In this document: positions 3,512-22,817 of the stretch, in pieces | How the letters are laid out: each line of letters starts with the position of its first letter | How positions within the stretch are numbered: the stretch's first letter is position 1 | NCBI GenBank assembly: GCA_017501695.1 | Contig: JAFVWL010000138.1 | Coordinates: forward strand, 1-54,281 | Direction: 5' to 3' | Length of the DNA stretch: 54,281 nucleotides | From: Oscillospiraceae bacterium | Lineage (GTDB): Bacteria > Bacillota > Clostridia > Oscillospirales > Oscillospiraceae | Made by a program: the position numbers and the translations under genes | The notes under the pieces: model-generated | What the model was told of the DNA's origin: nothing | Seen by the model: the letters and a program-made list of their open reading frames with translations, nothing else | Database searches by the model: none

Positions 3512-4360
3512 GTGGCGGAATTGAAACTGTGTATTCGGGCCCACGATCTGGGTGTCCAGGGAACCGAGGCCATCCTGGCCCGGCTGGCGGAGCTGGATAT
3601 CGACGGTGTGCAGATGGTCTGCTACAAGGCCTACGATGACATTCCCTATGCCCCCGGTGCCATTACGCCGGATAAGGCCGCGGCTATCGGCCAGGCCTTT
3701 GCCCAGCGGGGGGCCATGATCCCTCTGGTGGGTGCCTATTTTAACCCGGTCCATTCCAACCGGGAAAAGGCGGAGCGGTGCTTCAATATTTTCGGCGAGT
3801 ATCTTACCCGGTGCCGGGCCATGGGCTGTGACTATGTGGGCTCGGAGACCGGCTCCTACAGCGATGATCCCTGGGTCTATCACCCCCTGAACCGCAGGGA
3901 GGAGGCCTTGGAGGCAGTGGCGCAGACCTTCTCCCGGCTGTGTGATATCGCCGAGGTCCACGGCTCCACGGTGGCCATGGAGGGCGCCGCGGGCCATGTG
4001 TGCTGGAATGTCCAGGCCCTGGCCAAGGTCCGGAAGATGATCGGTAAGAAGACCGCCGTGATCTTCGACCTCTACAATTATCTTGACGAAACCAACCAGC
4101 GGGATTACCTGAAAATCCTGGACGAGGGTCTGGATACCTTCGCCGGTGAGATCCTGCTGTTCCATATGAAGGACTGCCGGTTTTTGGAGGGCGGCGCGCC
4201 CAGGCAGGTGCCCTTGGGCACCGGCGACATGGATATGGAAGCCATCCTGCGGCGGATCAAGGCCTACGACGAAAACGCGGTGCTGACCCTGGAGGGTACC
4301 ACCGGCGACCATATTGCCCGTGCGGTGGCCACCATCCGGGGCATCTGGGACCGGATCTGA
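3512..4360 (+). CDS. sugar phosphate isomerase/epimerase-like TIM-barrel protein
   Basis: 282-aa member of the xylose-isomerase-like TIM-barrel superfamily (AP endonuclease 2 fold). Metal-ligand type positions are visible: VAMEGAAGH near residue 153, IFDLYNYLD near 188, HMKDCRF near 218 and a late Glu in LTLEGTTG near 263. The start is not ATG: GTG at 3512 or TTG at 3521, the latter being better spaced from GGGGTGG. First gene after a new promoter, one base before the pectinesterase ATG. Exact substrate unknown; in this setting it is a candidate for a missing uronate or ketodeoxyuronate isomerase step (inference). Confidence 0.75.
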   Translation: MAELKLCIRAHDLGVQGTEAILARLAELDIDGVQMVCYKAYDDIPYAPGAITPDKAAAIGQAFAQRGAMIPLVGAYFNPVHSNREKAERCFNIFGEYLTRCRAMGCDYVGSETGSYSDDPWVYHPLNRREEALEAVAQTFSRLCDIAEVHGSTVAMEGAAGHVCWNVQALAKVRKMIGKKTAVIFDLYNYLDETNQRDYLKILDEGLDTFAGEILLFHMKDCRFLEGGAPRQVPLGTGDMDMEAILRRIKAYDENAVLTLEGTTGDHIARAVATIRGIWDRI

Positions 4361-4361
4361 C

Positions 4362-5222
4362 ATGAAGACCATCCATGTGACTGCGGAAGAGGACCTGCAG
4401 AAGGTTCTGGATTCTGCTCCCGCGGACGCGACGGTCCGGCTGGCACCCGGGATCTACCGGGCCAAGACCGTGATCCGAACCCCGGGACTGACGCTGATTG
4501 GCGCCGGGGCAGGGGAGACGGTGATCGTCTGGGACGATCACGCCAGAAAACCCCACCCCATCGGATATGAATACAATACCTTCCGGACCTGGACTCTGGC
4601 GGTCTGCGCGGACCGGGTGACGATCCGGGACCTGACCGTGGCCAACGATGCCGGGGATCCCCGGACCAAGGGCCAGCAGGTGGCCTTGAGCGTTTGCGGA
4701 ACGGATTTCTCCATGGAAAACTGTACCCTGACCTCCACCCAGGATACCCTGTTTCTGGGGCCTCTGCCGTCGGATCTCATCGGCCGGTACGAAGGCTTCC
4801 TGACGGACGACCTGCGGGCCGGATATCCCATGACCCAGCGGTTTGAAAACTGCCGGATCCAGGGCACCGTGGATTTCATCTTCGGCTGCGGCGAAGCGGA
4901 TTTTATCCGCTGTGAAATCCGCTCCCTGCACGACGGACGGGACACAGGCTATGTGGCGGCGCCTTCCCATGAGGCCCGGCGCGGCCGGGGCTTCCGGTTT
5001 CGGGAATGTGCGTTTACCTGCGGGGCGGAAGTGGCTCCGGAAAGCGTTTATCTGGCCCGGCCCTGGCGGGATTACGGCATGGCGGTTTTTGAGAATTGCC
5101 GGTACGGATCCCACATCGCCCCGGCGGGCTTTGATCCCTGGAGCGGTACCCGGCGGGACCGCACCGCCCGGTTTTACGAAACCCCGCCGGTCCCCGGCCG
5201 TGTGGACTGGGTGAAAGCGTAA
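4362..5222 (+). CDS. pectinesterase (CE8 pectin methylesterase)
   Basis: 286-aa carbohydrate esterase family 8 enzyme with the right-handed beta-helix signatures of pectin methylesterases: QQVALSV (105-111), QDTL (127-130), DFIFG (171-175, catalytic Asp171) and LARPW (231-235, substrate-binding Arg233). It hydrolyses methyl esters of galacturonic acid. The ATG at 4362 lies one base after the isomerase stop; an upstream in-frame ATG at 4314 lies inside the isomerase gene and is rejected. There is no signal peptide, whereas most bacterial pectinesterases are secreted; a cytosolic or periplasm-free oligosaccharide esterase such as E. coli-type PemB relatives would fit imported methylated oligogalacturonides. 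Confidence 0.92.
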   Translation: MKTIHVTAEEDLQKVLDSAPADATVRLAPGIYRAKTVIRTPGLTLIGAGAGETVIVWDDHARKPHPIGYEYNTFRTWTLAVCADRVTIRDLTVANDAGDPRTKGQQVALSVCGTDFSMENCTLTSTQDTLFLGPLPSDLIGRYEGFLTDDLRAGYPMTQRFENCRIQGTVDFIFGCGEADFIRCEIRSLHDGRDTGYVAAPSHEARRGRGFRFRECAFTCGAEVAPESVYLARPWRDYGMAVFENCRYGSHIAPAGFDPWSGTRRDRTARFYETPPVPGRVDWVKA

Positions 5223-5234
5223 GGAACGGTGCCT

Positions 5235-5819
5235 ATGAAGCAAATGACATTATCCCAATACCGGACCATCGATCTGGGGATCCTGCTGGGGGTGCTGGCG
5301 GTGAGCCAGTTCTTCATCAGTGTGGCTACTTACCAATGGTTTCCGGACCAGCTCTATGTGGTGTCTCCGGCGGCGGCGATCACGGCCCTGGTGATGATGC
5401 GCTGGGGCGGCTGGGCAGCCATTCACGCGGCCTCCGCGGGCTTGCTGTTTTCCTGTCTGTCCGGCGGCGGCTGGCAGCAGTTCCTGATCTACGGCGCGGG
5501 CAACCTGGCGGCTCTGGCAGCCCTGCCGGTGCTGCGGAAGCTGGGCAAGGAGCGGGTCCGGAAGGATGTCCTCCTGTCCCTGGGCTTCGGGCTCGGTGTC
5601 CAGGTGCTGATGCAGCTGGGTCGGGGAGTCCTGGCTATGATCCTGGGCTTCGGCTGGGAAGCGGCCCTGGGATTTATCACCACCGATTCGCTGTCGGTGA
5701 TCTTTACCTTGTTTATCACTTGGATCGTTCGTCAGGCCGACGGGCTGTTCGAGGATCAAAAACATTATCTGCTCCGCCTGCAAAGCGAGCACCAGAATGA
5801 AGGGAGAGAACAGTTTTGA
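5235..5819 (+). CDS. S-component-like integral membrane protein of unknown function
   Basis: 194 aa, very hydrophobic, five to six predicted membrane segments (about residues 12-32, 38-55, 58-76, 80-96, 108-135, 145-165) and a charged C-terminal tail. Size and helix pattern resemble substrate-binding S components of ECF transporters, but no diagnostic motif is seen and no EcfA/T genes are nearby. The ATG at 5235 has AAGGA 9 bases upstream; GTG at 5229 is less likely. The stop codon overlaps the TTG start of the first permease, so the gene is translationally coupled to the sugar ABC transporter. Confidence 0.6.
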   Translation: MKQMTLSQYRTIDLGILLGVLAVSQFFISVATYQWFPDQLYVVSPAAAITALVMMRWGGWAAIHAASAGLLFSCLSGGGWQQFLIYGAGNLAALAALPVLRKLGKERVRKDVLLSLGFGLGVQVLMQLGRGVLAMILGFGWEAALGFITTDSLSVIFTLFITWIVRQADGLFEDQKHYLLRLQSEHQNEGREQF

Positions 5820-6883
5820 AAAAACCAATGGCTGGAGATTTCCTCGTTTATGACAAGCACTCGAACACATACCGCGTGGACCCGGAGCAGGCCGTGCGGG
5901 ATGATGTGGAGAAGCACTACTGGCTCAATGTGGGGCGCACGGTTCTGAAGGACTGGCGTCTGTACGTGATGCTGGTGCCCATGATCCTGGTGTTCCTGTT
6001 CTGGCGGTACTTCCCCATGTACGAGCTGCTGCGCTGCTTCAAGGTGGCGGATCAGGTCAAGCCTGTTTCCGAGCAGTTCTTCTCGGGCTTCTCCTATTTC
6101 AAGCGGCTGCTGGTTGGCGGCGACAGTATGTCCACCGATTTCTGGCGGGCGCTGCGCAATACCTTCCTGCTGAGCTTCTACGGTCTGTGCTTCGGCTTCC
6201 CGGTGCCCGTGATCCTGGCCCTGTTCTTCAACGAGATCAAGTCCAACGGTCTGCGCAGCGTCTACCAGGTGCTGACCTACCTGCCCAAGTTCATTTCCAC
6301 CGTCGTCATGACCTCCCTGGTGACCATGCTGGTCAAGCAGGGCTCCCTGACCACCGGCATGGGCATCCTGTCCCAGGCGTTGTCCTCGTTGGGTGTCATA
6401 TCGGAGGAGGTGGCCTACGCGGGCCTTCTGAAGAACCCGGACTTCTTCCGGGCCATCTACCAGATCAGCGGCATCTGGGAGACCGCGGGCTACGATTCCA
6501 TCGTGTTCTTCGCCGCCATCATCGCCATCTCTCCCACCAGCTATGAGGCTGCCCAGATCGACGGCGCGGGCAAGATGGCCCAGATGCGCTATGTGGTTCT
6601 GCCCAGCATCCTGTCCACCCTGGTCATCATGCTGATCACCCGGATCGGCTCCCTGCTGAGCGTGGGCTACGAAAAGGTCCTGCTGCTGTACGATCCCAGC
6701 ACCTACATGACCGCCGATGTGGTTTCCACCTTCGCCCAGCGCTACGGCATGGGCAGCGCGTCGGCAGCGTCCAACCAGGGTATCGCCTCCGCCGCGGAAA
6801 TGATGAGTAACGTGATCAGTATGCTGCTGGTCATCGGTGCCAATACCATATCCCGCAAGGCGTCGGATGTATCGCTTTACTAA
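5816..6883 (+). CDS. CUT1 sugar ABC transporter permease (LplB/YteP-like)
   Basis: 355-aa binding-protein-dependent permease. A 40-residue cytosolic N-terminus precedes about six membrane helices; the EAA coupling motif that contacts the ATPase is SYEAAQIDGAGKMAQMRYVV at about residues 242-261. The LplB/YteP group works with LplC-type partners on oligogalacturonides and rhamnogalacturonan fragments in Bacillus. The start codon is TTG with AGGGAGAG before it and overlaps the previous stop. Followed after 12 bp by the partner permease. Confidence 0.92.
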   Translation: MKKPMAGDFLVYDKHSNTYRVDPEQAVRDDVEKHYWLNVGRTVLKDWRLYVMLVPMILVFLFWRYFPMYELLRCFKVADQVKPVSEQFFSGFSYFKRLLVGGDSMSTDFWRALRNTFLLSFYGLCFGFPVPVILALFFNEIKSNGLRSVYQVLTYLPKFISTVVMTSLVTMLVKQGSLTTGMGILSQALSSLGVISEEVAYAGLLKNPDFFRAIYQISGIWETAGYDSIVFFAAIIAISPTSYEAAQIDGAGKMAQMRYVVLPSILSTLVIMLITRIGSLLSVGYEKVLLLYDPSTYMTADVVSTFAQRYGMGSASAASNQGIASAAEMMSNVISMLLVIGANTISRKASDVSLY

Positions 6884-6895
6884 GGGGGGCTTCCG

Positions 6896-7786
6896 GTGAA
6901 AAGAAAACTTGAAATTTCCGAACTGATCTTTAAGATCATCAGCTACACTCTGCTGACCATGTTCGCCCTGTGCTGCCTGTATCCCTTTGTCTACGCCGTC
7001 AGCGCCGCCATCAGCGGCCAGCATGCCGTGGACTACGGCGAGGTCATCCTGTTCCCCAAGGACATCCAGTTCGAGGCCTTTGCCCGGATGTTCAACGACA
7101 ATATGTTCTGGAACGCTTACGCCAATACCTTGTTTCTGACAGTGTACGGCACCCTGTGGGCCATGCTGGTGGCCATCCTGGGCGCCTATGCCCTGTCCAA
7201 GAAGCGGCTGCTGTTCCGGACCTTCTTCAACTTCTTCCTGGTGTTCACCATGTGGTTCTCCGCGGGCATCGTGCCTCAGTACCTGAACTATCTGGATACC
7301 AAGGAAGTGTTCAACGCCATTGGCATCATGGATGACAAATGGCTGGTGGTCATCGCCATGGGTATGGCGGCCATGAACATCATCCTCCTGCGTAACGCCT
7401 TCGAGGGTGTCCCCTCTGATATTGAGGAAGCCGCCATCGTGGACGGTGCCACGGAATTCCAGGTGCTGACCAAGGTGTACATCCCCATGTCCAAGTCCAC
7501 CATCGCCACTGTGGCCCTGTTCTTTGCCATTTCCCGCTGGAACGGCTACTTCTGGGCCCGGCAGATGATCTCCAACGCCAACGAGCATCCCCTGCAGGTC
7601 TTCATCCGGCTGAAGCTGGAGGAGTTCACGGATCCCGAGTTTATGGCCGGCTGGAATGAGATCTATTCCTCCGACTCCGTGATCTATGCCCTGATCGTCT
7701 GTTCCATCGTGCCCATCCTCGTCATTTATCCCTTCATCCAGAAGTACTTCGCCAAGGGCGTCAACGTCGGCGGCGTGAAGGAGTAA
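6896..7786 (+). CDS. CUT1 sugar ABC transporter permease (LplC/YtcP-like)
   Basis: 296-aa inner-membrane permease with six predicted helices and an EAA coupling loop, DIEEAAIVDGATEFQVLTKV, at about residues 176-195. GTG start with AAGGGGGG upstream. It forms the heterodimeric pore with the preceding LplB-like protein; the solute-binding lipoprotein follows 101 bp later. Typical length for the family. Confidence 0.92.
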   Translation: MKRKLEISELIFKIISYTLLTMFALCCLYPFVYAVSAAISGQHAVDYGEVILFPKDIQFEAFARMFNDNMFWNAYANTLFLTVYGTLWAMLVAILGAYALSKKRLLFRTFFNFFLVFTMWFSAGIVPQYLNYLDTKEVFNAIGIMDDKWLVVIAMGMAAMNIILLRNAFEGVPSDIEEAAIVDGATEFQVLTKVYIPMSKSTIATVALFFAISRWNGYFWARQMISNANEHPLQVFIRLKLEEFTDPEFMAGWNEIYSSDSVIYALIVCSIVPILVIYPFIQKYFAKGVNVGGVKE

Positions 7787-7887: not shown

Positions 7888-10086
7888 ATGAAGAAGACGT
7901 TAGCCCTCATTCTGGCGCTGATCATGTGCCTGGGCCTGCTGGCCGGCTGCATGAGCGTCGACACTCCCACCGATCCTCCCACGAATCCCCCCACCAATCC
8001 TCCTACCAATCCTCCCACGACCCCCGGCGGTGACAAGCCCACCGATCCCCCTCCCACCGATCCTCCCGTGACCGATCCTCTGGCTTTTGCTGCCGGCACC
8101 GTCCTGCGCATGGCCACCGGTTACAACAGCGCCAAGACCGGCCTGTTCTTCGATCCCGAGACTGCCGGTGAGGGCATCACCCTGGCCGACGGCAAGACCT
8201 ACCACAACGGCGAACTGAAGCCCACCTGGGTTGAGGTTCAGAACCGCCTGGGCATGGTCTTCGAGAACCACTACCAGGGCAACTCCGCTCAGAACGAGTT
8301 CAAGTACTGGCAGGACCGCCTGGGCGAAGTCGACATGGTCAGCGGCACCGCTTCCCAGCTTTCCGAGTTCGGCGTGGCCGGCTCCATCGTCAACATCGCT
8401 GAGCATCTGGACAAGATGCCCAACTTCAAGGCTTACCTGGAGGCCAACCCCATCGTCCGCCTGTCCATCACCGGCGACACCTCCACCGGCGCCATCTACT
8501 TCTCCCCCTACTTCGACGGTGTCAACGACATCGAGCGTATGCCCCTGATGCGTGTTGACTGGGTCGTCAAGCTGCTGGACGGCGAAGGCGAGTTCACCGC
8601 CGACGCTTCCCACAACCTGGCCGCCGCTGTCTACACTCCCTACATGCCCACCTCCGGCAAGGTCACCGTTGATGTGGTCAACCTGGAAGGCACTGCTGTC
8701 GAGCAGGTCACCAAGGACTATGACGCTGCCGGCAACATCGTTAAGGTCATGAACGACGCCCTGGCTTCCGGTACTGTGACCGGTGTGCAGGCTGTCAATA
8801 TGCTCCGCGACTACATCGATACCGCCTACAACGGCTACTACGGCACCGCCCGTTCCAACCTGTTCGTCGGTCAGAACGCTGCCTGGGATGCTGACGAGCT
8901 GGTCGCCCTGCTGCGCTGCGTCGTTGCCAACCCCCAGACTCTGAACGGCACCGACAACGTGGAAGGCCTGTTCTCCCGTGAGGACGCCAACAACCAGCGC
9001 CGTGTTGATATGTTCCGCTTTGCCGGCACCCTGTTCGGCGTCCGCGGTCTGGAGTCCCGTCAGGATTACCTGTATGTGGGCAGCGACGGCATGCTGCACG
9101 ATGCCCGTCAGGAAGCTGACACCTACGAGGCTCTGGCCAGAATGAACGCCATGGCTCAGGAAGGCCTGATCTCCCAGTCCTACATCGACGAGTCCGATGA
9201 GAACACCTCCAAGATGCTGGAGAACGACAACGGCTTCATGCACTATGACTACAACCAGACTCAGACCGTCTACAACGAGACCAAGCTGGACGACGGCGAG
9301 AAGTACATGGCTGTCATGGTTCCCGTGGCCCACTGGTTCGACGGCACTGAGGGCGGCGTCTACATGCGCTTTACCGAGTCCTGGCGTTCCGTCAAGACCG
9401 ACGGCTGGGGCATCTCCATTGCCGGTATCAACGGCGACGAGAACAAGCTGAATGCCTGCCTGAAGCTCATCGACTACGCTTACTCCCCCGAGGGTCAGAT
9501 CCTCATGTCCTACGGTCCCGATGCCTTCATCAAGACCAATGAGGACGGCTCCTACGTCACCTTCAACTTCAACGGCACCGAGATGCCCGTGATCGCCGAC
9601 GCCACCTACGACGAGCTGTGGGCGAAGGCTTCCGGCAACTACACCAACTATGCCCGTATGTACCTGGGCTCCACCCTGTCCTTCGCTAAGAGCCAGGCCT
9701 TCGAGTATCAGTGCACCCACGTGGTCGGCAAGGAAGGCGCCGGTCACATCTCCACCGCCATCGGCCTGGGCGTCATCAAGCATCCCGAGCTGGCCCTGAC
9801 CGAGAACCCCTGGTACACCTCCGTTCCCACCGTCCTGCCCACCACCGCTCAGGAGAACACCATGATCGGCGAGATGACCGAACTGAAGACCCAGTTCAGC
9901 TCCTCCAAGAAGGAATTCAACCTGATGTGCGCCATGATCGCCGGCACTCTGGAGCTCGAGGGCTTCGACTCCGCCGAGCAGGCTGTTGAGACTGTTGCCC
10001 AGACCTGGAGAGGCGCTCAGTACCTGGCTCTGAAGCAGGATGCTTACAACCGTCTGGTCGCTTACTACGAGACCCTGAACGGCTGA
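7888..10086 (+). CDS. extracellular solute-binding lipoprotein (LplA-like, large)
   Basis: 732-aa substrate receptor of the sugar ABC transporter. The signal peptide ends in a lipobox LLAGC (Cys21), so it should be anchored to the outer face of the membrane. Residues about 25-65 are a Pro/Thr/Asp-rich repeated linker (PTNPPTNPPTNPPT), probably a wall-spanning spacer. The remainder is a type-1 sugar-binding fold, longer than the usual 450-560 aa. Codon use (GCC/GCT, GGC/GGT, CGT, almost no rare codons) differs from neighbouring permeases and suggests very high expression. Ribosome site AAAGGAGAA. A long hairpin follows the gene. Ligand most likely oligogalacturonide (inference from context). 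Confidence 0.92.
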   Translation: MKKTLALILALIMCLGLLAGCMSVDTPTDPPTNPPTNPPTNPPTTPGGDKPTDPPPTDPPVTDPLAFAAGTVLRMATGYNSAKTGLFFDPETAGEGITLADGKTYHNGELKPTWVEVQNRLGMVFENHYQGNSAQNEFKYWQDRLGEVDMVSGTASQLSEFGVAGSIVNIAEHLDKMPNFKAYLEANPIVRLSITGDTSTGAIYFSPYFDGVNDIERMPLMRVDWVVKLLDGEGEFTADASHNLAAAVYTPYMPTSGKVTVDVVNLEGTAVEQVTKDYDAAGNIVKVMNDALASGTVTGVQAVNMLRDYIDTAYNGYYGTARSNLFVGQNAAWDADELVALLRCVVANPQTLNGTDNVEGLFSREDANNQRRVDMFRFAGTLFGVRGLESRQDYLYVGSDGMLHDARQEADTYEALARMNAMAQEGLISQSYIDESDENTSKMLENDNGFMHYDYNQTQTVYNETKLDDGEKYMAVMVPVAHWFDGTEGGVYMRFTESWRSVKTDGWGISIAGINGDENKLNACLKLIDYAYSPEGQILMSYGPDAFIKTNEDGSYVTFNFNGTEMPVIADATYDELWAKASGNYTNYARMYLGSTLSFAKSQAFEYQCTHVVGKEGAGHISTAIGLGVIKHPELALTENPWYTSVPTVLPTTAQENTMIGEMTELKTQFSSSKKEFNLMCAMIAGTLELEGFDSAEQAVETVAQTWRGAQYLALKQDAYNRLVAYYETLNG

Positions 10087-10216: not shown

Positions 10217-10810
10217 ATGTATAAAAAACAGTTGAATTTCCAAAAATTCGTGTGCCTGCTGGCTGTGATCGCCGCGGCGGTGGTCTTCGTCTATTCTCTG
10301 GGCATGATCACGGACATCTATGATGCCCTGTACTCCACCATGAGAAACCCCAACGACCTGACCCAGACCTCTGTGCCCGGCTCCATCATCTACTATGACA
10401 TGCAGGATTTCAACACCATGTACACCTATGTGGGCATCGGTCTGATCCTGCTGGCCTGCGGACTGTTCCTTACCAACACCCATGTGCGCAGACGCTACTA
10501 CATCGGCAACTATGTGGCAACTCTGGTGTACAGCGTGGCGATGGTTGTGGCTACGGTGTGGTCCCATCTGGAGATCTCTGCCTTTGCCCACCAGTTTATG
10601 ACCACGGTGGATTTTGAGGCCCTGCGCAAGTATGCCGACCTGTGGAAGACGCCCTATCTGGACAATACCTTCCTGCTGGATCTGCATTACGCGGTGGCAG
10701 CCCTGTCCCTTGTGGCGGTGGCGGCCCTCATCGGCAACATGATCTGGAAGATCCTGCTGATGCGTGGGGAGAAGAAGCTGACGGAAAGCGGAAAGGAGGC
10801 TGCCGTATGA
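10217..10810 (+). CDS. 4-TM membrane protein of unknown function (A), sugar ABC operon
   Basis: 197 aa with predicted membrane segments at about 11-32, 68-87, 95-116 and 154-180, a 35-residue outside loop between segments 1 and 2, and a short Lys-rich tail. I do not recognise a family. It lies directly after the solute-binding lipoprotein hairpin, has its own ribosome site (ACGGGGAGGTC), and its stop overlaps the start of protein B (ATGA). No EAA loop is visible, so it is not an ordinary CUT1 permease. Confidence 0.75.
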   Translation: MYKKQLNFQKFVCLLAVIAAAVVFVYSLGMITDIYDALYSTMRNPNDLTQTSVPGSIIYYDMQDFNTMYTYVGIGLILLACGLFLTNTHVRRRYYIGNYVATLVYSVAMVVATVWSHLEISAFAHQFMTTVDFEALRKYADLWKTPYLDNTFLLDLHYAVAALSLVAVAALIGNMIWKILLMRGEKKLTESGKEAAV

Positions 10811-11298
10811 CCCGGGAAGATCAGATTCTGAAGAAGGACCGGATGCTTTATACCAAGGATACCCTGTCCGCCAATCTGGTGCTGGCGGCCATTGTGCTGG
10901 ACGCGCTGTACTTTGTGAGCATCTACAATTCCGATGTGGGTACTTATTACTACAATTGGGTGATCGGTGCCTCCATTATTTACAACCTGCTGTTCATGCT
11001 GGGCGCGTTCCTGGCCTCCGAGGGCGTGAAGAACCGGAAAAACGGTTATTCCGTCATGCTGATTCTCCTCGGCCTGATGCAGATCGGCCGTGTGTTCTAT
11101 CTGCCCACCATGGCTCACGAAGCTGTGGTTACGGTGAAGAAGGAGGAACTGGTGGTCATGGGTGACGAGCAGTTCTACTTCGTGGTTGCCTGCCTGGTGA
11201 TCTCCGGCATCTGCTGCTGCGCCGCTGCGGTGACCAGCTACATCAACAACAAGACCCTGGCTGATTACGTCCGTTCCAACGAAAAACAATCCGCATGA
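10807..11298 (+). CDS. 4-TM membrane protein of unknown function (B), sugar ABC operon
   Basis: 163 aa, predicted segments at about 20-40, 50-70, 81-99 and 122-146; unusual CCCAAA stretch in the last helix (Cys136-138). Start ATG at 10807 overlaps the previous stop and has AAAGGAGG upstream. Ends 13 bp before the first ATPase gene. Family not recognised; co-translation with protein A argues that A and B work together. Confidence 0.75.
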   Translation: MTREDQILKKDRMLYTKDTLSANLVLAAIVLDALYFVSIYNSDVGTYYYNWVIGASIIYNLLFMLGAFLASEGVKNRKNGYSVMLILLGLMQIGRVFYLPTMAHEAVVTVKKEELVVMGDEQFYFVVACLVISGICCCAAAVTSYINNKTLADYVRSNEKQSA

Positions 11299-11311
11299 GA
11301 GGTAGAAGATT

Positions 11312-12397
11312 ATGGCAGAACTGAGCTTACAGCATTTGGAAAAAGTCTATGACAATAACGTTCAGGCCGTATTTGACTTTAATCTCGACGTGAAGGACGG
11401 CGAGCTCATCGTCCTAGTCGGTCCCTCCGGCTGCGGAAAGTCCACCACGCTGAGAATGGTCGCCGGCCTGGAAGATATTACCAGCGGCAAAATGCTGCTC
11501 AACGGCAAGGACGTGACCAATGCCCCCGCCAAGGACCGGGACATCGCCATGGTCTTCCAGAGCTATGCCCTGTACGGCCATATGACGGTGTACGAGAATA
11601 TGGCCTTCTCCATGACCCTCCGGAAGGAGAACCCCAATGTGATCCATAAGAAAGTACTGGCTGCGGCAGAGGTCCTGGGCCTCACGGAGCAGTTGAACAA
11701 AAAGCCCTCCCAGCTCTCCGGCGGTCAGCGCCAGCGTGTGGCTATGGGACGGGCCATCGTCCGCAATCCCCAGCTTTTCCTGTTTGACGAACCCCTCTCC
11801 AACCTGGACGCCAAGCTGCGCAGCGCCACCAGAAGAGAGATCCTGCTGCTGCACAAGCGGCTCAACGCCACCATGCTCTATGTTACCCACGACCAGACCG
11901 AGGCACTGACCCTGGCGGACCGGATCGTGTGTATGTCCATGGGCCATGTCCAGCAGATCGGCACCCCCCTGGAGCTTTACGATTCCCCGGCCAACCTGTT
12001 TGTGGCCAGCTTCATCGGTCTGCCGCCTATGAATTTTGTGGATGTCAGAGTGAATCAGGGAACTCTGGTCCATGAGCACTTTACCATGCCCCTGACCCAG
12101 GCCGAGCAGAAGGCCCTGGCCCCTTACGAGGGCAAGACCGTTGTCCTGGGCATCCGTCCCGAAAACACCCGGGTGGGTGACGAATTCAAACTGAAAGTCC
12201 TATCCAATGAGAATTTGGGTATGAATACACTGGTCCACGGCCATATCGGCCCCAACGGCGAAGGTGAACGGATCACCTGCAAGCTGGCGGGCTGGTGCGA
12301 TTACAAGCCGGGTGATGTGGTCTCCATCACCTGCACCAGAAAGCATTTCTTCGACAAAGAGACCACCAACGCCATCCCTGTGGAGGTGGAAGCATGA
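11312..12397 (+). CDS. ugpC: sugar ABC transporter ATPase 1 (MalK/MsmX/UgpC type)
   Basis: 361 aa: ATPase domain (about 1-235) with Walker A GPSGCGKST (37-45), Q-loop VFQSYALYGHM, signature LSGGQRQR, Walker B LFLFDEPLSNLDAK and switch His in VTHDQTEA, then a C-terminal TOBE/OB regulatory region as in MalK. All catalytic residues are present. It energises CUT1 sugar importers; LplBC here is the obvious client. The stop overlaps the start of membrane protein C (GCATGAGC). A second complete ATPase of the same class is encoded 1.25 kb downstream. Confidence 0.93.
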   Translation: MAELSLQHLEKVYDNNVQAVFDFNLDVKDGELIVLVGPSGCGKSTTLRMVAGLEDITSGKMLLNGKDVTNAPAKDRDIAMVFQSYALYGHMTVYENMAFSMTLRKENPNVIHKKVLAAAEVLGLTEQLNKKPSQLSGGQRQRVAMGRAIVRNPQLFLFDEPLSNLDAKLRSATRREILLLHKRLNATMLYVTHDQTEALTLADRIVCMSMGHVQQIGTPLELYDSPANLFVASFIGLPPMNFVDVRVNQGTLVHEHFTMPLTQAEQKALAPYEGKTVVLGIRPENTRVGDEFKLKVLSNENLGMNTLVHGHIGPNGEGERITCKLAGWCDYKPGDVVSITCTRKHFFDKETTNAIPVEVEA

Positions 12398-12972
12398 GCG
12401 AACTGAAGAATAAGAAAAAGCCCGGTATCGCTGCCGGTGTGCGGGAGACCATCCGCAAGGCCCTGGTTTCCCTGAAGCGGAATCCCCAGGTGATCCCTAT
12501 GACCATGCTGGTCATTTCCTTCGTGCTGTATTCCTTCAACCTGACGGCCATGTCCGATACCACCGCCAAGATCCAGGGCCCCGGTATGGGCCTGTGCCAG
12601 TTCTGCATCATGCTGTTCTCTCTGCTGTCCTTTATCTGCCTGATGAACAGCTTCCCCCGGCGCAAGCCCGTGAATGTGCCCATGGTGGTCCTGCTGTTCA
12701 TCATGTTCGGCATTATGATCTACTGCGACATCCATTACATCGGCGCCATCAATGCCGCCATTACCCGTGCCGAAAGCCCCATTAAGATCGAAAAGGCTAC
12801 GGAGTACATTGTGACTGCCAATAATATGCTCATTGTCTTCGGCGCGCTGATCGGCGTTACCGCCGCCCTGGTCGCCACCCTTCCCTTCTACAGCAAGCTG
12901 CTGAAGAAGATCAACACCACCGTGGAGGTGGAGGACAACGGCGAAATGGGTGCCATCGAGCTGAACGACTGA
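12394..12972 (+). CDS. 4-TM membrane protein of unknown function (C), sugar ABC operon
   Basis: 192 aa. Basic N-terminal 30 residues (KNKKKP, RKALVSLKRN), predicted segments at about 33-51, 65-87, 95-117 and 141-165, and an acidic tail (VEVEDNGEMGAIELND). Translationally coupled to ATPase 1 by an ATGA overlap, which suggests physical partnership. No family recognised and no EAA loop. Confidence 0.75.
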   Translation: MSELKNKKKPGIAAGVRETIRKALVSLKRNPQVIPMTMLVISFVLYSFNLTAMSDTTAKIQGPGMGLCQFCIMLFSLLSFICLMNSFPRRKPVNVPMVVLLFIMFGIMIYCDIHYIGAINAAITRAESPIKIEKATEYIVTANNMLIVFGALIGVTAALVATLPFYSKLLKKINTTVEVEDNGEMGAIELND

Positions 12973-13006
12973 TCTGTCCCCAATCTTCCGAAGGAATGGA
13001 AAACCC

Positions 13007-13612
13007 ATGAGTAAAAGCAAAAAATCCAAAAATTATGACCTGAAAAGCAAAGCGGTGGAGAACCTGACGGATTCCGGGGAACAGACACCGGAATACTCCG
13101 AGGAGGAGCTGAACAAGTACCGGTCCAAGGGCAAATTCAAGATACCGGAGCTTGCCAAGGTCCTGTTTGCCAAGGCCTGGTTCGCCGGCGCGGTGTGCTA
13201 CTTCATCTTCTGGGGACTGGGAATGTACCTGGTCAGCATCATTGATCTGCTTTTTGTTCTGGGCGTGGCCCAGGGCATGGTGACGGACCTGCTGCTAAAC
13301 AATGTGATCCGCTTTATTGAGAAGCAGCCCGGTGCCAACGACAAGTGGCTCATGGTCACCCGGAAGGGGAGCCTGGGCCTGGTGCTGAATGTGCTCTACG
13401 GCCTGGTCCAGATCATCTGTGTGTATATGCTGTACAATGTGATCAACCTGGCTATCATCAGTGTCACCGGTGCGGTGGATACGGTGCCTTTGGGTGTGGA
13501 GCCCATCCTCTTCGGTGTGTTCACCATGGGCATTGACCTGCTGTTCATCGGCATGAAACGGATGCTGAGCGGCATGGTCAGCGATGCCAAAACCAAGGCC
13601 CGTGGCCTTTGA
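13007..13612 (+). CDS. 4-TM membrane protein of unknown function (D), sugar ABC operon
   Basis: 201 aa. A highly charged 50-residue N-terminus (Lys/Ser-rich, then EYSEEELNKY) precedes predicted segments at about 57-76, 77-96, 122-145 and 163-184. Ribosome site CGAAGGAATGG. It lies between protein C and ATPase 2, so each ATPase is preceded by a pair of 4-TM proteins. Not recognisable as a known transporter subunit. Confidence 0.75.
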   Translation: MSKSKKSKNYDLKSKAVENLTDSGEQTPEYSEEELNKYRSKGKFKIPELAKVLFAKAWFAGAVCYFIFWGLGMYLVSIIDLLFVLGVAQGMVTDLLLNNVIRFIEKQPGANDKWLMVTRKGSLGLVLNVLYGLVQIICVYMLYNVINLAIISVTGAVDTVPLGVEPILFGVFTMGIDLLFIGMKRMLSGMVSDAKTKARGL

Positions 13613-13649
13613 TCCTGATTTTTCCATATGAGATAAGGAGTGTCGGTAT

Positions 13650-14753
13650 ATGGCTTATTTGACCCTGAAAGGACTTAATAAGATCTATCCCAACGGCTTT
13701 CACGCGGTCCATGATTTCAACCTGGAGATCGAGAAGGGCGAGTTCATCGTCTTTGTCGGTTCCTCCGGCTGCGGTAAGTCCACCACCCTGCGGATGATCG
13801 CGGGTCTGGAAAACATCAGCAGCGGCGAACTCCAGATCAATGGCGTCCGGGCCAATGAGATGGGTCCCCGGGAGCGGGAGGTGGCCATGGTCTTCCAGAG
13901 CTACGCCCTGTACCCGCAGATGTCCGTGTATGACAATCTGGCCTTCGGCCTGACGCTCCAGGGCGTGGACGAGGATATTATTGACGAGAAGGTCAAAAAT
14001 GTGGCCCGGATCCTGGGCCTGACGGATTACCTGGACCGGATGCCCCGTGCCCTGTCCGGCGGTCAGCGTCAGCGTGTGGCCGTGGGCCGCGCCATCATCC
14101 GCAAGGTGGGTGTGTTCCTGATGGACGAGCCCCTGAGTAACCTGGATGCCAAGCAGCGTGTGACCATGCGGGCAGAAATCGCCCAGATCCACCGCCAGAC
14201 CGGCGCTACCACCATCTACGTTACCCACGACCAGATCGAGGCGATGACCCTGGCTGATCGGATCGTCATTATGAAGGACGGATATATCCAGCAGGTGGGC
14301 ACTCCCTACGAGCTGTATTTCAAGCCTGTGAACCTGTTCGTGGCGGGCTTCATCGGCGAGCCTCCCATGAACTTTATCCGTGCCACGGTTCAGGACGGCT
14401 GTATCGACATCGCGGGCCAAAAGCTGAATATCAAAGCCAATCTGGGCCACCACGCCAAGGCTTACGAGGGCAAGGATATCTATTTCGGCTTCCGTCCCGA
14501 AGCCACGGTGCTGGGTGAGCAGGAGAATTCCCATGTGCTGGAAGCCCGTGTGGAGCTGACGGAGATGCTGGGTGACAACACCAACGTCTATGTGAACATC
14601 GGTCCCCACAACGCCATCCTGAAAGTGACTCCTTATGAGACTCCCGAGATGGATACGGACATCGTTTTCTCCATTCCCATGGAGCGCACCTATCTCTTTG
14701 ACGCGGAGACCGAGCGGGTCATCTCCCTGGAGGACCAGGCGGCTCCGGTCTGA
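13650..14753 (+). CDS. ugpC: sugar ABC transporter ATPase 2 (MalK/MsmX/UgpC type)
   Basis: 367 aa with all ATPase motifs: Walker A GSSGCGKST, Q-loop VFQSYALYPQM, signature LSGGQRQR, Walker B VFLMDEPLSNLDAK, switch VTHDQIEA, plus a C-terminal TOBE region with FGFRPEA. Clearly paralogous to ATPase 1 but substantially diverged in the regulatory half, so it is not a recent duplication. Two intact MsmX-type ATPases in one operon are unusual because one normally serves several importers. Last transport gene before the hydrolases. Confidence 0.93.
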   Translation: MAYLTLKGLNKIYPNGFHAVHDFNLEIEKGEFIVFVGSSGCGKSTTLRMIAGLENISSGELQINGVRANEMGPREREVAMVFQSYALYPQMSVYDNLAFGLTLQGVDEDIIDEKVKNVARILGLTDYLDRMPRALSGGQRQRVAVGRAIIRKVGVFLMDEPLSNLDAKQRVTMRAEIAQIHRQTGATTIYVTHDQIEAMTLADRIVIMKDGYIQQVGTPYELYFKPVNLFVAGFIGEPPMNFIRATVQDGCIDIAGQKLNIKANLGHHAKAYEGKDIYFGFRPEATVLGEQENSHVLEARVELTEMLGDNTNVYVNIGPHNAILKVTPYETPEMDTDIVFSIPMERTYLFDAETERVISLEDQAAPV

Positions 14754-14776: not shown

Positions 14777-16318
14777 ATGAGATTTCATTGCTTGTATGTT
14801 TCCTCCGTTTCCGCCTGCTTCGAACTGGAAAACACATCCCCGTATTATGCGGAAGAAGCCTTTGACGTAACAGTGAATGGTGCGCCCGCCCTGGAGGGCG
14901 TGCGCACCAATGTTTTTTCCCTGTTCGACCTGAAGCCGGAAACGGAGTATACGGTGGCCGTGGGCGGCGAAGCCCTGTCCATCCACACAAAACCTGAAAC
15001 CGGATGCGTCAGCGTCCGGGATTTTGGCGCAGTGGGTGACGGTGTTACGGATGATACCGTTGCCATCCAGAACGCCATCCACGCCTGTCCCCGGAACGGC
15101 CGGGTCCAGGTGAGCCCGGGCACCTACGCGGTCCGGCCCCTGGTTCTGAAGTCCCACATGACCCTGGAGCTTCAGTCGGGAGCGGTGCTTCTGGGAGACA
15201 CCTGTGAGGAACATTACCCTCTGATGCCCGGCGAGGTTCCCTGCGGACCTGACGGGCAGGACCTGCAGATCAGCTCCTGGGAGGGCAATCCCATGCCCTG
15301 CCGCCAGAGCTTTATCAGCGCTTTCCATGCCCATGATATTACCGTCGTGGGCCGGGGCATCATCGACGGAAACGCCCCCAATTCCACCTGGTGGGAGAAT
15401 GTGAAGACCCGGTCCATCGGCCGTCCCCGGCTGGTGTTCCTGAACCGGTGCCAGAAGGTCCGGTTCCATGGCATCCTGGGCCGCAATTCCGCTTCCTGGA
15501 ACTTCCATCCCTATTTCTGCCAGGATCTGGGCTTCTACGACATGGCGGTGGAGGCACCTAAGGACAGCCCCAATACCGACGGCACGGACCCGGAGTCCTG
15601 CGACGATGTGCGCTATGTGGGCGTCCGGTTCTCTGTAGGTGACGATGCCATCGCCATCAAGTCCGGCAAGATGTATATGGGTATGCGGTACAAGACTCCG
15701 GCTACCCGCCATGTGGTCCGCAACTGCCTGATGGAATACGCCCACGGGGCCATGGTCCTGGGCAGTGAGATGTCCGGAGGCATCAAGGACCTGACGGTGA
15801 GCCAGTGCTATTTCAAGCACACGGACCGGGGCCTGCGGATCAAAACCCGCCGGGGCCGGGGCAAATACGCGGTCATCGACGGTGTGGAGTTTTCCAATAT
15901 CCGCATGGACAACGTCATGGCTCCTTTGGTTATGAATATGTATTATTTCTGCGATCCGGACGGTCACGAAGAGATCGTTTGGAGCAAGGAATACCATCCT
16001 GTGGACGATACTACCCCCTATCTGGGCTCCTTCCGGTTCCGGGATATGGACTGCACCGACTGCGAGTGGGCCGCGGGCTACTTCTACGGCCTGACGGAAC
16101 AGCCCATCGGCAGTGTGACCATTGAGAATGTGCGCTTTACCTTTAAGGAGGATGCCCAGTCCGGCCGGCCCGCCATGATGGACTACATTGACAACGAATG
16201 CAAGCGTGGCCTGTATTTCAACGGTGTCCATAAGGTGATTCTGAAGAATGTGACGATGGAAGGCCAGGTCGGCGAACGGATCACGGCGATCCGTGTGGAT
16301 GAGGTGATCGACGAATGA
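14777..16318 (+). CDS. GH28 polygalacturonase family protein
   Basis: 513 aa. Residues about 1-80 form a small beta-rich domain like the FnIII-type cap of exo-polygalacturonases; the rest is a GH28 right-handed beta-helix. Catalytic signatures are NTDGTD, GDDAIAIKSG, YAHGAMVLGSEMSGG and RIKTRRGRG. Reaction: hydrolysis of alpha-1,4-galacturonosyl bonds. No signal peptide, pointing to an intracellular exo-acting enzyme on imported oligomers. ATG at 14777 follows GAGGA by 7 bases and is preferred to TTG at 14762. The stop overlaps the GH105 start (GAATGA). Confidence 0.92.
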   Translation: MRFHCLYVSSVSACFELENTSPYYAEEAFDVTVNGAPALEGVRTNVFSLFDLKPETEYTVAVGGEALSIHTKPETGCVSVRDFGAVGDGVTDDTVAIQNAIHACPRNGRVQVSPGTYAVRPLVLKSHMTLELQSGAVLLGDTCEEHYPLMPGEVPCGPDGQDLQISSWEGNPMPCRQSFISAFHAHDITVVGRGIIDGNAPNSTWWENVKTRSIGRPRLVFLNRCQKVRFHGILGRNSASWNFHPYFCQDLGFYDMAVEAPKDSPNTDGTDPESCDDVRYVGVRFSVGDDAIAIKSGKMYMGMRYKTPATRHVVRNCLMEYAHGAMVLGSEMSGGIKDLTVSQCYFKHTDRGLRIKTRRGRGKYAVIDGVEFSNIRMDNVMAPLVMNMYYFCDPDGHEEIVWSKEYHPVDDTTPYLGSFRFRDMDCTDCEWAAGYFYGLTEQPIGSVTIENVRFTFKEDAQSGRPAMMDYIDNECKRGLYFNGVHKVILKNVTMEGQVGERITAIRVDEVIDE

Positions 16319-17451
16319 AACGGATAGAAAGTTATGTAAACCGCCTTCTGGCGGAATCCACCCCGGACCGGCCCCTGTGGAACATTGAGAAGATCCGGGA
16401 GGGCAAGATCAACGGCTGGAACTACATCGACGGCTGCATGATGACTGCCCTGCTGAACCTGTACGAGATCACGGGTCAGCGTCGTTACTATGAATTCGCG
16501 GAGCAGTTCCTGGATTACTATGTGTTCGAGGACGGTTCCCTCCGGGGCTTCCGGGAGGAAGACTATAATCTGGACAATATCTGCGAGGGCCGGGTGCTCT
16601 TTGAGGTTTACCGGCTCAGCGGCAAGGAAAAGTACCGCAAGGCCATGGATACCCTCTACGGCCAGATCCGGCGGCAGCCCCGGACCCATGAGGGCAGCTT
16701 CTGGCACAAGGCCATTTATCCCAACCAGGTTTGGCTGGACGGCCTGTACATGGGCCAGGTGTTCTACGCCCGCTATACCACCCAGTTTGAGGACTGTGCC
16801 CATTACGAGGATATCCGCAACCAGTTCCGCACGGTCCGCCGGCGGATGTTCGACCCGGAAACCGGCCTGTACCGCCATGGCTACGATGCCAGCGGCGCGG
16901 CATTCTGGGCAGGGGAGAATGGCTGTTCCCAAAATCCCTGGCTCCGGAGCCTGGGCTGGTTCAGTGCCGCCCTCATCGATGTGACCGCGGAAATTGCTGA
17001 CGGCCATGAGGATTTCAAGGCGGAGATGACCGGCATCGCCCGGGAATTGGCGGCCAATCTGCTGCCCTACATCGACCGGGAATCCGGTATGCTCTGGCAG
17101 GTGCCCAATCAGGTCGGTCGGGAGGGCAACTACCCCGAGACCTCCGGCTCCGCCATGGTGGCATATTTCTACATGAAGGGTGCCCGGCTGGGGATCCTGG
17201 AGGAAAGCTATGCTTCTGTGGGCGCTGACATTTTCCAAAGCATTTGCCGCCGCTACCTGACCGAGGTGGACGGCAGGCTGAATCTGGGTGGTATCTGTCT
17301 GGTGGCGGGCCTGGGTCCTGAAAACAACCGCCGCCGGGACGGAAGCTATGAATATTATATCTCCGAACCCATCGTGGAAAATGACGCCAAGGGCTTGGCT
17401 CCTTTCCTGATGTGCTATACGGAACGGTTACAATTGGAAGAAAAACAATAA
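16315..17451 (+). CDS. GH105 unsaturated galacturonyl/rhamnogalacturonyl hydrolase
   Basis: 378-aa (alpha/alpha)6-barrel enzyme of the YteR/YesR type that removes the 4,5-unsaturated galacturonate from lyase-generated oligosaccharides, giving a product that rearranges to 5-keto-4-deoxyuronate. The general acid/base Asp is in VWLDGLYMG (Asp142; Asp143 in YteR). The family GW motif appears as PWLRSLGWF, and the C-terminal YYISEPIVENDAKGLAPF block is typical. Coupled to GH28 by a 4-base overlap. Cytosolic. Confidence 0.92.
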   Translation: MKRIESYVNRLLAESTPDRPLWNIEKIREGKINGWNYIDGCMMTALLNLYEITGQRRYYEFAEQFLDYYVFEDGSLRGFREEDYNLDNICEGRVLFEVYRLSGKEKYRKAMDTLYGQIRRQPRTHEGSFWHKAIYPNQVWLDGLYMGQVFYARYTTQFEDCAHYEDIRNQFRTVRRRMFDPETGLYRHGYDASGAAFWAGENGCSQNPWLRSLGWFSAALIDVTAEIADGHEDFKAEMTGIARELAANLLPYIDRESGMLWQVPNQVGREGNYPETSGSAMVAYFYMKGARLGILEESYASVGADIFQSICRRYLTEVDGRLNLGGICLVAGLGPENNRRRDGSYEYYISEPIVENDAKGLAPFLMCYTERLQLEEKQ

Positions 17452-21410: not shown

Positions 21411-22817
21411 ATGGCATCCCGCGTTTCACAAAAAGATGAATCCTTCCGCCAGTACGCCCTGAATGGGCCGGTGCTGGGGGTGCTGCTCAGTTCCTGTGTG
21501 CCCCTGGCCCTGTTCCAGGCGCTGCAGTCCGTGTTCAAAATTCTCGATGCTCTGATGGCATCCCATATCGGCTCCGGCGCGGTGTCCGCCGTAGCGGCAC
21601 TGAGTCAGATTACGTTGATGATCACGGCTCTGGGCAGTGGTCTGGCGGTGGGCGGCAGCATCCGCATATCCGCGGCCTACGGACGGGGGGACTACGAGGA
21701 GGTCCGCCGCCTGGTGGCTACGGTCTATGCTCTGGCTGTGGCGGTGAGCCTGGCGGTGGCGGCGGTGCTGGTACCCTTCGCGGAGCCGTTTCTGCGGCTG
21801 CTGGGCACCCCCGAGGAGCTGATCGCCACCGGAAGCGGCTATTTCCGGGTGGAGATCCTGACGCTGACGGTGAACTTCTTCAACACCGTCTATATCGCCA
21901 TCGAGCGCAGCCGGGGTCATGCCAAAAAGATTCTGGCCATGAATATGGTGGTGGTCCTGGTGAAGCTGAGCCTGACAGCCTTCTTCGTCTATGTGATGGA
22001 GGGGGATCTGGTGATGATCGCGGGAGCGACCCTGATCGGCCAGATTCTGATGCTGGGTTGGGCGGTGATCTCCATGCGCCGGGACGACGGTGCCTTCCGG
22101 TTCTCACCCCAAAATATTCGGCTGGACAAGCAGACCCTTCTGCCTATGCTGAACCTGTCCTATCCCGTGTCCGCGGAGAAGATGCTCTTCGCCGGGGGCA
22201 AGGTGGTGGTCAACTCCATGTCCGGCAGGTACGGGGAGCTGACCGTGGGTGCCCTGGGCATTTCCAACAACATCGGCGGCCTGACCACCTCCTGGCACAT
22301 GGGCATGACCGACGGCGCCGCACCGCTGATCAGTCAGAACCGGGGCGCGGGAAAGCACCGGCGGACCTTAGCGCTGTATGGCTGGCTGCTTGCGGTGAAT
22401 GTGGGCATTGGCCTGGTGGGTCTGCTGATCGTTTCCAACACCCTGCCCTGGCTGGCCCAGGTATTCGCCCAGTCCAAGAATAACTATGACGCGGAGTTCT
22501 CCGCTATGATCGCGGACATCCACCGGTGGGAGATGCTGGGCTATGTGACCCTGGGCATCAACTCCGCCACGGTGGCGCTGCTGCTGGGCTACGGCTATAC
22601 CAAGCTGACCCTGTTTTTGAATGTGGCCCGGGTATTTGCCTACCGGGTTCCGGTGCTGTGGGTCCTGCAGAATTTCACGGACCTGGGGCCGGAGGCCGTG
22701 GGCATCACCATGATGGTCAGCAACATCTGCGTGGGTGTAACAGCCATCATCATCGCCATCCCGGTAGTGCGGAAGATCCTCCGCCTGGCCCGGGAAGAAG
22801 AAAATACCAACGCCTGA
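21411..22817 (+). CDS. MATE-family efflux transporter
   Basis: 468 aa with about 12 predicted helices in the two-bundle MATE (MOP) arrangement; conserved N-terminal pattern GSGAVSAVAALSQITLM and a matching second repeat from about residue 250. Member of the NorM/DinF-like group, drug or metabolite/cation antiport. It ends the pectin cluster with AAAAAGGAGCG as ribosome site and its stop lies inside a terminator hairpin. Substrate unknown; export of uronate-derived or plant phenolic compounds is speculation. Confidence 0.88.
   Translation: MASRVSQKDESFRQYALNGPVLGVLLSSCVPLALFQALQSVFKILDALMASHIGSGAVSAVAALSQITLMITALGSGLAVGGSIRISAAYGRGDYEEVRRLVATVYALAVAVSLAVAAVLVPFAEPFLRLLGTPEELIATGSGYFRVEILTLTVNFFNTVYIAIERSRGHAKKILAMNMVVVLVKLSLTAFFVYVMEGDLVMIAGATLIGQILMLGWAVISMRRDDGAFRFSPQNIRLDKQTLLPMLNLSYPVSAEKMLFAGGKVVVNSMSGRYGELTVGALGISNNIGGLTTSWHMGMTDGAAPLISQNRGAGKHRRTLALYGWLLAVNVGIGLVGLLIVSNTLPWLAQVFAQSKNNYDAEFSAMIADIHRWEMLGYVTLGINSATVALLLGYGYTKLTLFLNVARVFAYRVPVLWVLQNFTDLGPEAVGITMMVSNICVGVTAIIIAIPVVRKILRLAREEENTNA

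Follow-up and report, generated by a model that had tools for sequence, protein, structure and literature searches.

Why should a pectin operon that already appears to encode a complete sugar importer of the CUT1 type, a five-part machine whose Gram-positive representatives are known to share one ATPase, also carry small membrane proteins interleaved with two ATPase genes? The question is raised by a 54,281-nucleotide stretch of DNA (hereafter the window; assembly GCA_017501695.1, contig JAFVWL010000138.1) from an Oscillospiraceae bacterium. An earlier, sequence-only reading had proposed that four unrelated membrane proteins (A to D) form an accessory membrane complex energised or regulated by dedicated MsmX-type ATPases (AT1 and AT2), and had put them forward as a candidate transport system.

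All six open reading frames from A to AT2 were found where that reading had placed them, and the ATGA overlaps that it reported for A–B and AT1–C are present in the window (Table 1). In 23 relatives' loci (the set used for the overlap and AT2-distance counts, with the window left out, L019 included and L129 excluded), a start codon allowing a 4-base overlap is available for A–B in 20 and for AT1–C in 9. The orphan membrane proteins number five, not four: X had been missed and belongs to the block, which forms a compact unit of ~9.5 kb. An X–PermB gene fusion, suggested by extension of the open reading frame in L025–L027, was discarded, as a stop codon separates the two genes in L025 and L026, the two of these three loci that were read. 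Scans of the DNA returned 6 promoter-like sites (3.9 +/- 2.1 expected) and 12 terminator-like sites (7.5 +/- 2.2 expected). Pectinesterase, GH28, GH88 and uronate genes surround the block, with esterase-family genes near by, and the setting is a pectin operon, as had been claimed.

Table 1. Genes of the block and its immediate neighbours in the window
Feature	Position	Strand	Profile match or remark
Pectinesterase-family protein	4359..5222	+	Pfam Pectinesterase, E 1.6e-31; upstream
X, orphan multi-TM protein, 196 aa	5229..5819	+	First gene of conserved block
PermB, permease with EAA loop, AlgM1-like	5816..6883	+	BPD_transp_1
PermC, permease with EAA loop, AlgM2-like	6896..7786	+	BPD_transp_1
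SBP, 732-aa lipoprotein-like solute-binding protein, Pro/Thr-rich linker	7888..10086	+	
A, orphan 4-TM protein, 197 aa	10217..10810	+	
B, orphan 4-TM protein, 163 aa, ATGA overlap with A	10807..11298	+	
AT1, MalK-type ATPase with OB domain, between B and C	11312..12397	+	ABC_tran + OB_MalK
C, orphan 4-TM protein, 192 aa, ATGA overlap with AT1	12394..12972	+	
D, orphan 4-TM protein, 201 aa, polar N-terminal tail	13007..13612	+	
AT2, MalK-type ATPase, specialised lineage	13650..14753	+	ABC_tran + OB_MalK + TOBE_2
Hydrolases, GH28 and GH88 families	14777..17451	+	Pfam Glyco_hydro_28, Glyco_hydro_88; downstream

The core of the block is, judged from its proteins, of a known kind. The EAA loops ascribed to PermB and PermC are there: both permeases fit the 7-position pattern at 7/7, with 0/500 shuffles as good. 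In the PDB, AlgM1 is the only match of PermB at E<=1e-3 (E 2e-62) and AlgM2 the best match of PermC (E 3e-80). SBP has no Pfam or NCBIfam family match; its 10-row profile, however, finds AlgQ1 (E 1.5e-23) and AlgQ2 (E 8.5e-22) in the PDB, and also other solute-binding proteins, 5gub and 5xs8 at about 1e-14. These two entries, like 5gx6, which is matched as well, we take to be Smon0123. Cys21 of SBP is invariant in the 10-row alignment, and we read its surroundings as a putative lipobox. With two EAA permeases, MalK-type ATPases and a predicted lipoprotein SBP, what lies beside A–D is by these features a complete CUT1-type ABC sugar importer, as the sequence-only reading had held, with a core of the alginate type.

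A–D are of another nature. Family-averaged hydropathy gives four transmembrane stretches in A, B and C; the four-helix plan probably holds for D too, which shows three runs, of which one spans 40 residues and is for that reason probably two helices. In the same analysis lysines and arginines lie at the ends of A–D and in the TM2–TM3 loop, though they are just as numerous in the long third loop of A; in A, conserved polar motifs occur in loops that our topology reading places outside. As had been noted, A–D lack an EAA loop, and so does X (at most 4/7 positions, 300–500 of 500 shuffles as good). The absence of mutual similarity among A–D was borne out by hhalign, which also finds no relation to PermB or PermC; common ancestry of A–D was rejected, probabilities reaching at most 1.8% with first and enlarged alignments alike. 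Neither A–D and X of the window nor any of the rows of A, D and X had a family match over cut-off (Pfam and NCBIfam for the window proteins), and the match of A–D to known unrelated families that would have spoken against the earlier proposal did not appear. The same sets were free of ECF S or T component families over cut-off, a weak ECF_trnsprt match (E 0.014) occurring in 1 of 17 A rows. X, suspected from its look to be an ECF S component, gave nothing significant in Pfam and PDB profile searches; its best PDB chain, EMC subunit 4, stands at a non-significant E 0.033.

Proteins without known families could be chance neighbours or phage genes whose function is not linked to the importer. Yet PHROG gave no match below E 0.03 for A–D, C (the sole member searched there) had none in phage or plasmid records, and A–D are under purifying selection, with dN/dS across four genome pairs of 0.16–0.39 for A, 0.13–0.30 for B, 0.04–0.50 for C and 0.06–0.39 for D. 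Furthermore, the order X-PermB-PermC-SBP-A-B-AT1-C-D is kept in all 23 fetched loci that span it. This conserved synteny already refutes the chance or phage origin, to which we give practically no credence.

The block is not confined to this strain; had it been, that would have counted against the earlier proposal. It was found in three families of Clostridia, in loci that adjoin pectin or uronate genes. Of 394 genomes drawn from the order, 11 carry D, and the same 11 carry a close PermC ortholog (at least 65% identity); in a phylum-wide draw the C profile was found in 1 of 398 genomes, the window's own only. PermC proteins with the cassette form one clade (26 rows, as against 16 without it; support 100/100), and no cassette was seen at 14 more distant permease loci, one of which is cut. 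AT2 was found in 25/25 block genomes searched. X, A–D, AT1 and AT2 thus travel with PermB, PermC and SBP as a unit. In G600, the gene for SBP follows GH28 instead of preceding A. Since none of the genomes examined showed A–D in the absence of the close PermB/PermC lineage, they do not appear to form a system of their own, and on this point the earlier proposal needs correction.

The two ATPases belong to separate lineages. AT1 and AT2 each form a long-stemmed clade of their own (support 100/99 and 100/100, respectively). Both keep all catalytic motifs (intact in 23/23 rows for AT1); AT1 reaches OB_MalK and misses the TOBE_2 cut-off. Among 60 AT2 relatives, identity is at least 76% in the 7 block genomes and at most 58% elsewhere among the matches listed. 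The multitask function of MsmX has been linked to charged D77, R104, E110 and K154 and to interface residues K74 and N84 (MsmX numbering; excerpts of PMC7658222). AT2 has almost none of these (K74, D77 and N84 each 0/26, R104 0/27, E110 1/27, K154 0/27), whereas AT1 keeps most (K74 24/24, D77 24/24, N84 18/24, R104 23/24, E110 2/24, K154 17/24), as do other relatives (of 24: K74 23, D77 21, N84 24, R104 19, E110 20, K154 21). The label 'MsmX-type' therefore holds in so far as AT1 and AT2 both score above the cut-off of the UgpC family, and fails for AT2 at nearly all residues tied to multitasking. Because these residues are absent AT2 looks dedicated, and AT1 and AT2 both appear by sequence to be dedicated rather than shared; against this argument for AT2, the authors of PMC7658222 themselves state that no single residue decides whether an ATPase multitasks. 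AT1-specific changes were not convincingly concentrated in the permease-facing subdomain (8/52 positions vs 28/309 elsewhere).

Two ATPases might mean two transporters, AT1 energising A–D as a separate one (for a released sugar, an ester group or an ion, for example) and AT2 energising PermB–PermC. In its favour, AT1 lies between B and C in every locus where both of these neighbours can be seen, whereas AT2 is movable (13 of the 23 relatives' loci have it no more than 90 bases from D, 8 have it 1.6–5 kb away and the remaining 2 at a distance of about 10 kb), and the two ATPases carry different residues at or close to the permease interface. We nonetheless consider this division improbable: A–D have no EAA loop and show no relation to PermB or PermC, the cassette was not seen without these permeases, and it is AT1, not AT2, that retains most MsmX-like residues. 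AT1 and AT2, which co-occur, may instead form a heterodimer for one permease pair, an option that the sequence-only reading had not raised; the intact motifs of both give no sequence sign of the asymmetry that some heterodimers show.

A diverged paralogous copy of the block (L106) adjoins heparinase/alginate-lyase-like genes. A (E 3.4e-5), B (3.3e-4) and D (1.3e-11) are retained there, together with an ATPase and a small C-like protein without a profile match, the latter assigned by position and size only; there is no X match and a single ATPase within the fetched 20 kb. A clade of AT1 with the L106 ATPase was neither rejected (p-AU 0.39) nor established. L106 bears on the idea that A–D work as a processing complex in the membrane, one that for instance shuttles esterified oligogalacturonides or modifies them, and are merely co-expressed with the importer. 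The polar motifs of A and the neighbouring esterase-family genes would suit such a complex; but the cassette persists in L106 beside different enzymes and no known catalytic family was found over cut-off, so that we hold this idea to be very improbable.

The reading that we favour, with a probability of about one half, is that all the genes of the block serve a single importer of oligogalacturonides, acidic fragments of pectin, in which X and A–D are accessory membrane subunits. SBP would capture an acidic oligosaccharide and pass it to PermB–PermC, driven by AT1 and AT2, possibly as a heterodimer; X and A–D would lie around this core or hold it in place, and might serve to dock the oversized SBP or to gate and assemble the complex; and the imported sugar acids would then be broken down by enzymes that the operon itself encodes, its hydrolases and its uronate enzymes. 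The single ATPase and missing X of L106 and the displaced SBP gene of G600 weigh against it, as does the dN of A–D, which exceeds that of both permeases and both ATPases in 3/4 genome pairs. A bolder version, which we advance only tentatively, is a ten-component importer in which the CUT1 pair works with an obligate AT1–AT2 heterodimer and a stoichiometric collar of X and A–D docks the oversized SBP lipoprotein; it would have arisen a single time, in Clostridia, to take up polyuronates, and copies of an X-less form would serve one or more further substrates.

The higher dN is what peripheral or regulatory proteins might show, and A–D (and X) could be membrane proteins of the pectin operon that serve in assembly, quality control or regulation and stay outside the final transporter. 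That they are many, small and separate agrees with this, and a parallel may be seen in DUF624/YesL, small membrane proteins found beside CUT1 operons, whose role, itself unproven, would be comparable; a DUF624 protein adjoins another CUT1 operon of the same genome (L092). The likeness does not extend to sequence, as DUF624 (PF04854) matched none of A–D in the window nor any A or D row. The fixed order around AT1 and the strict co-occurrence with one permease lineage point instead to a stoichiometric part of the importer, and we regard a role outside it as rather unlikely.

No such cassette is described in the literature searched, judged by titles and abstract starts, or in the profile libraries searched. 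What is new would be the accessory membrane cassette, whose function we infer, and its apparently dedicated ATPases, on a known alginate-type core; this suggests that some Clostridia have a larger kind of sugar-import machine, one that these sources do not describe. If so, one permease pair accompanied by a conserved set of five orphan families and two private ATPases would make a new type I importer architecture, and would offer a first functional handle on five unannotated protein families in bacteria with pectin-degradation genes. The compactness of the unit makes the hypothesis directly testable.

Among known systems, ECF transporters also combine two paralogous ATPases with small membrane proteins (S, T, A and A' components); unlike them, the block has an SBP, two EAA permeases, a MalK OB domain on its ATPases and no ECF family over cut-off. 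The nearest solved permeases belong to the AlgQ1/AlgQ2–AlgM1-AlgM2/AlgS-AlgS importer of Sphingomonas sp. A1 (PDB 4TQU), which takes acidic uronate oligosaccharides, as the block would, and whose AlgQ1 and AlgQ2 are matched by the SBP profile. That importer pairs AlgM1–AlgM2 with an AlgS homodimer (excerpts of PMC5717064); compared at the gene level, the block differs in its pair of diverged ATPases, in the size of its SBP (732 aa) and in having five additional membrane proteins. The Smon0123/Smon0121-Smon0122/Smon0120 glycosaminoglycan importer of Streptobacillus moniliformis, of the same permease and SBP kind, takes uronate-containing disaccharides, and liposome assays of its transporter, which has an ATPase homodimer, used no additional subunits. 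In the same excerpts of PMC5717064 both are four-subunit transporters plus SBP, which counts against our favoured reading. Finally, the CUT1 systems YtcQP-YteP and YesOPQ of Bacillus subtilis, held in the excerpts of PMC5730181 to import galacturonate oligomers and/or rhamnose-galacturonate disaccharides, are served by the orphan ATPase MsmX, whereas here the ATPases are encoded in the operon and AT2 is without the residues linked to multitasking.

The sequence-only reading had described A-D as four mutually unrelated membrane proteins without an EAA loop, and both points hold: hhalign gave at most 1.8% among A, B, C and D and at most 3.8% between them and X, PermB or PermC (PermB versus PermC, 97.8%), and by pattern scoring the EAA loop is complete in PermB and PermC while A-D and X score at shuffle level. 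The ORF positions of the block genes were likewise confirmed (see table); X is a block gene that this reading had overlooked. Averaged over 17-19 rows, hydropathy revealed four transmembrane stretches per protein for A, B and C; D shows three hydrophobic runs, of which one spans 40 residues. Lysines and arginines are present at the N-terminus, in the TM2-TM3 loop and at the C-terminus, as for a predicted four-helix protein with both termini inside; A has a further mean of 3.5 K+R in its long third loop.

Positions of the block genes and of related features (L, fetched loci; G, genomes; C plus number, contigs)
Feature	Location	Strand	Length	Remark
X	window 5229-5819			orphan membrane protein
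PermB	window 5816-6883			permease
PermC	window 6896-7786			permease
SBP	window 7888-10086			solute-binding protein
Repeat linker	window 7960-8080			Pro/Thr/Asn (PTNPP repeats), downstream of the lipobox-like Cys of SBP
A	window 10217-10810	+	197 aa	
B	window 10807-11298	+	163 aa	
AT1	window 11312-12397	+		MalK-type ATPase
C	window 12394-12972	+	192 aa	
D	window 13007-13612	+	201 aa	
AT2	window 13650-14753	+		MalK-type ATPase
MatE-family transporter	window 21411-22817			in the uronate part of the operon
MatE-family transporter, two relatives	L110:16379-17794; L111:6939-8339			directly adjoins AT2
C of G632	L054:8406-9356			apparent additional hydrophobic N-terminal part (~130 residues); may be a wrong start
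SBP of G1048	L129:7771-10665		964 aa	
Paralogous block	L106:8810-17941 (G762:C4)			PermB-PermC-SBP-A-B-ATPase-C-D
Related permease pair	L107:8340-16526			glycosaminoglycan-type operon (GH88, sulfatase, heparinase families), no cassette
Different CUT1 operon, same genome	L092 (G000:C94:1-12000)			with DUF624 protein

Searches for known relatives of A-D were negative. Pfam, NCBIfam and PHROGs yielded nothing that passed a cut-off or fell under about E 0.002, PADLOC gave no match, and the four profiles matched no PDB chain at E <=1. A row-by-row scan of the A and D alignments returned scattered weak matches alone (best E 0.003); one relative of A matches TgpA_N at E 0.00085, short of the family cut-off.

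The block is conserved as a unit: every locus fetched over the full length of the core, 23 in all, keeps the order X-PermB-PermC-SBP-A-B-AT1-C-D. These are a first group of 15 (L018, L020, L021, L023-L033, L035), seven (L051-L057) that come partly from further genera of the family and partly from a second family of the order, and a single one from outside the order (L129). Contig ends leave partial views of L019, L022, L034, G549 (L047/L109) and G600 (L058/L108); G600 deviates from the block order, with its SBP gene behind a GH28 gene and AT2 ahead of PermB. Counting L019 and leaving out L129, a start codon suitable for an ATGA-type overlap is found in 20/23 loci at the A-B junction and in 9/23 at the AT1-C junction, where our script detected no C start in three. 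Pairwise dN/dS spans 0.04-0.50 for A-D and 0.03-0.18 for the ATPases (four pairs each), 0.03-0.19 for the permeases (three pairs), 0.14-0.57 for SBP and 0.13-0.35 for X; where dS exceeds 1, as it does several times, the values are rough. A C search found the gene in 16 of 149 genomes (relatives including the window's own), every one in the window's genus, so that its distribution is patchy even inside the genus; in 398 genomes of the phylum the C profile found none beyond the window's own. Searching D in the GTDB contig collection brought up five loci, L018-L022, all in MAGs of Clostridia; two of these are named Lachnospiraceae and one Oscillospiraceae.

The cassette (the small membrane proteins A, B, C and D around AT1) is tied to one permease lineage. 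Within the order, D is present in 11/394 genomes and PermC orthologs of at least 65% identity in the same 11 (both searches covered equal numbers of genomes, and the handles agree wherever they are listed), D and PermC lying on separate contigs in G549 and G600. Two weaker PermC matches remained, in G762 (locus L106, 55% identity) and G791 (L107, 38%), the latter without cassette. A class-wide search with the L106 PermC gave matches in 12/291 genomes and 13 more permease loci in which the cassette is not visible. Of these, L134 is cut by its contig end just past the SBP gene, L132 extends only 0.6 kb past that gene, and in L133 the SBP is absent from this place. Searched without overlap filter, these 13 loci and L107 gave nothing below E 0.004 and no clustering, weak matches being scattered; a long ORF in L138 had matched at E 0.0008 when enlarged profiles were used. 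In the PermC tree (42 rows), a branch supported at 100/100 separates the 26 cassette-labelled rows from the rest (G600 was counted as cassette-bearing via its other contig, cut loci as without), which suggests a single gain of the cassette as the most likely history, a tree with long outgroup branches being no proof.

L106 holds a second, paralogous and strongly diverged block, whose A, B, C and D share 17, 21, 14 and 27% identity with the window's. Profiles built without L106 recovered its A at E 3.4e-5, its B at 3.3e-4 and its D at 1.3e-11, each where expected, with E-values scaled to the 147 frames of this locus; C had no profile match and was assigned from position and size. Neither X nor a second ATPase was seen in the fetched stretch. 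Downstream lie DUF4962 and heparinase/alginate-lyase-like genes (heparinase II/III), and the block is likely an importer for another polyuronate. The locus also holds an IclR-type regulator.

AT1 and AT2 share about 50% identity and form separate clades of their own (support 100/99 and 100/100) on long stems, apart from 24 other relatives, in trees of 70 and then 76 rows; because the tree program warns of long branches meeting, we do not propose a sister relationship. Walker A/B, the Q-loop glutamine, the signature and the H-loop are intact in 23/23 rows of each. An AT2 ortholog (65-87% identity) occurs in 25/25 genomes chosen for holding the block, at partial length in G023, G063 and G600. 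Among 60 relatives, AT2 matches reach 76-87% in seven block genomes (the window's own, 100%) and at most 58% among the matches listed elsewhere, with no match at E 1e-90 in 10. Leisico et al. (PMC7658222) link D77, R104, E110 and K154 to multitask MsmX-like ATPases, add K74 and N84 in discussion, and hold single residues not to be decisive. In our alignment, AT1 retains most of the six, E110 excepted (N84 and K154 too are missing from the window's copy), other relatives retain nearly all, and AT2 has almost none and therefore looks dedicated; the label MsmX-type, previously given to both, is only partly apt. The MalK OB family has three matches in the window's genome (87% complete): AT1, AT2 and one adjoining another permease gene on contig C150.

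The best solved-structure matches of PermB and PermC are AlgM1 and AlgM2. For SBP, the profile search picks out AlgQ1/AlgQ2 and, with weaker scores, further solute-binding proteins (Smon0123). In the loci examined, full-length cassette-linked SBPs measure 702-964 aa; SBP-like ORFs of cassette-free relatives mostly measure 504-536 aa, with one of 604. Around the block in the window lie GH4, BD-FAE-type esterase, AraC-type regulator, TIM-barrel, pectinesterase, GH28, GH88, SDR, mannitol-dehydrogenase-type and altronate/galactarate-dehydratase families, and, judging from the look of the sequences, comparable genes recur in relatives. Because of the AlgM/AlgQ-type kinship and these pectin and uronate genes, the block would take up oligogalacturonides, an assignment we consider well supported.

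Composition, order, co-occurrence, selection and core family membership of the block are established. We prefer to see X and A-D as accessory subunits of one importer, since the cassette stays with its permease lineage across speciation, in a paralogous copy and amid changed neighbouring enzymes, and since related permeases manage without it. AT1 may pair with AT2; the position of AT1 is fixed and that of AT2 movable, which is compatible with either ATPase making a given contact. Cargo direction and size we infer. No description of the accessory cassette or of the apparently dedicated ATPase pair was found in the family libraries searched or among the open-licence papers listed. The importer core is already known. 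Importers of the AlgM/Smon type, according to PMC5717064, carry alginate or uronate-containing GAG disaccharides.
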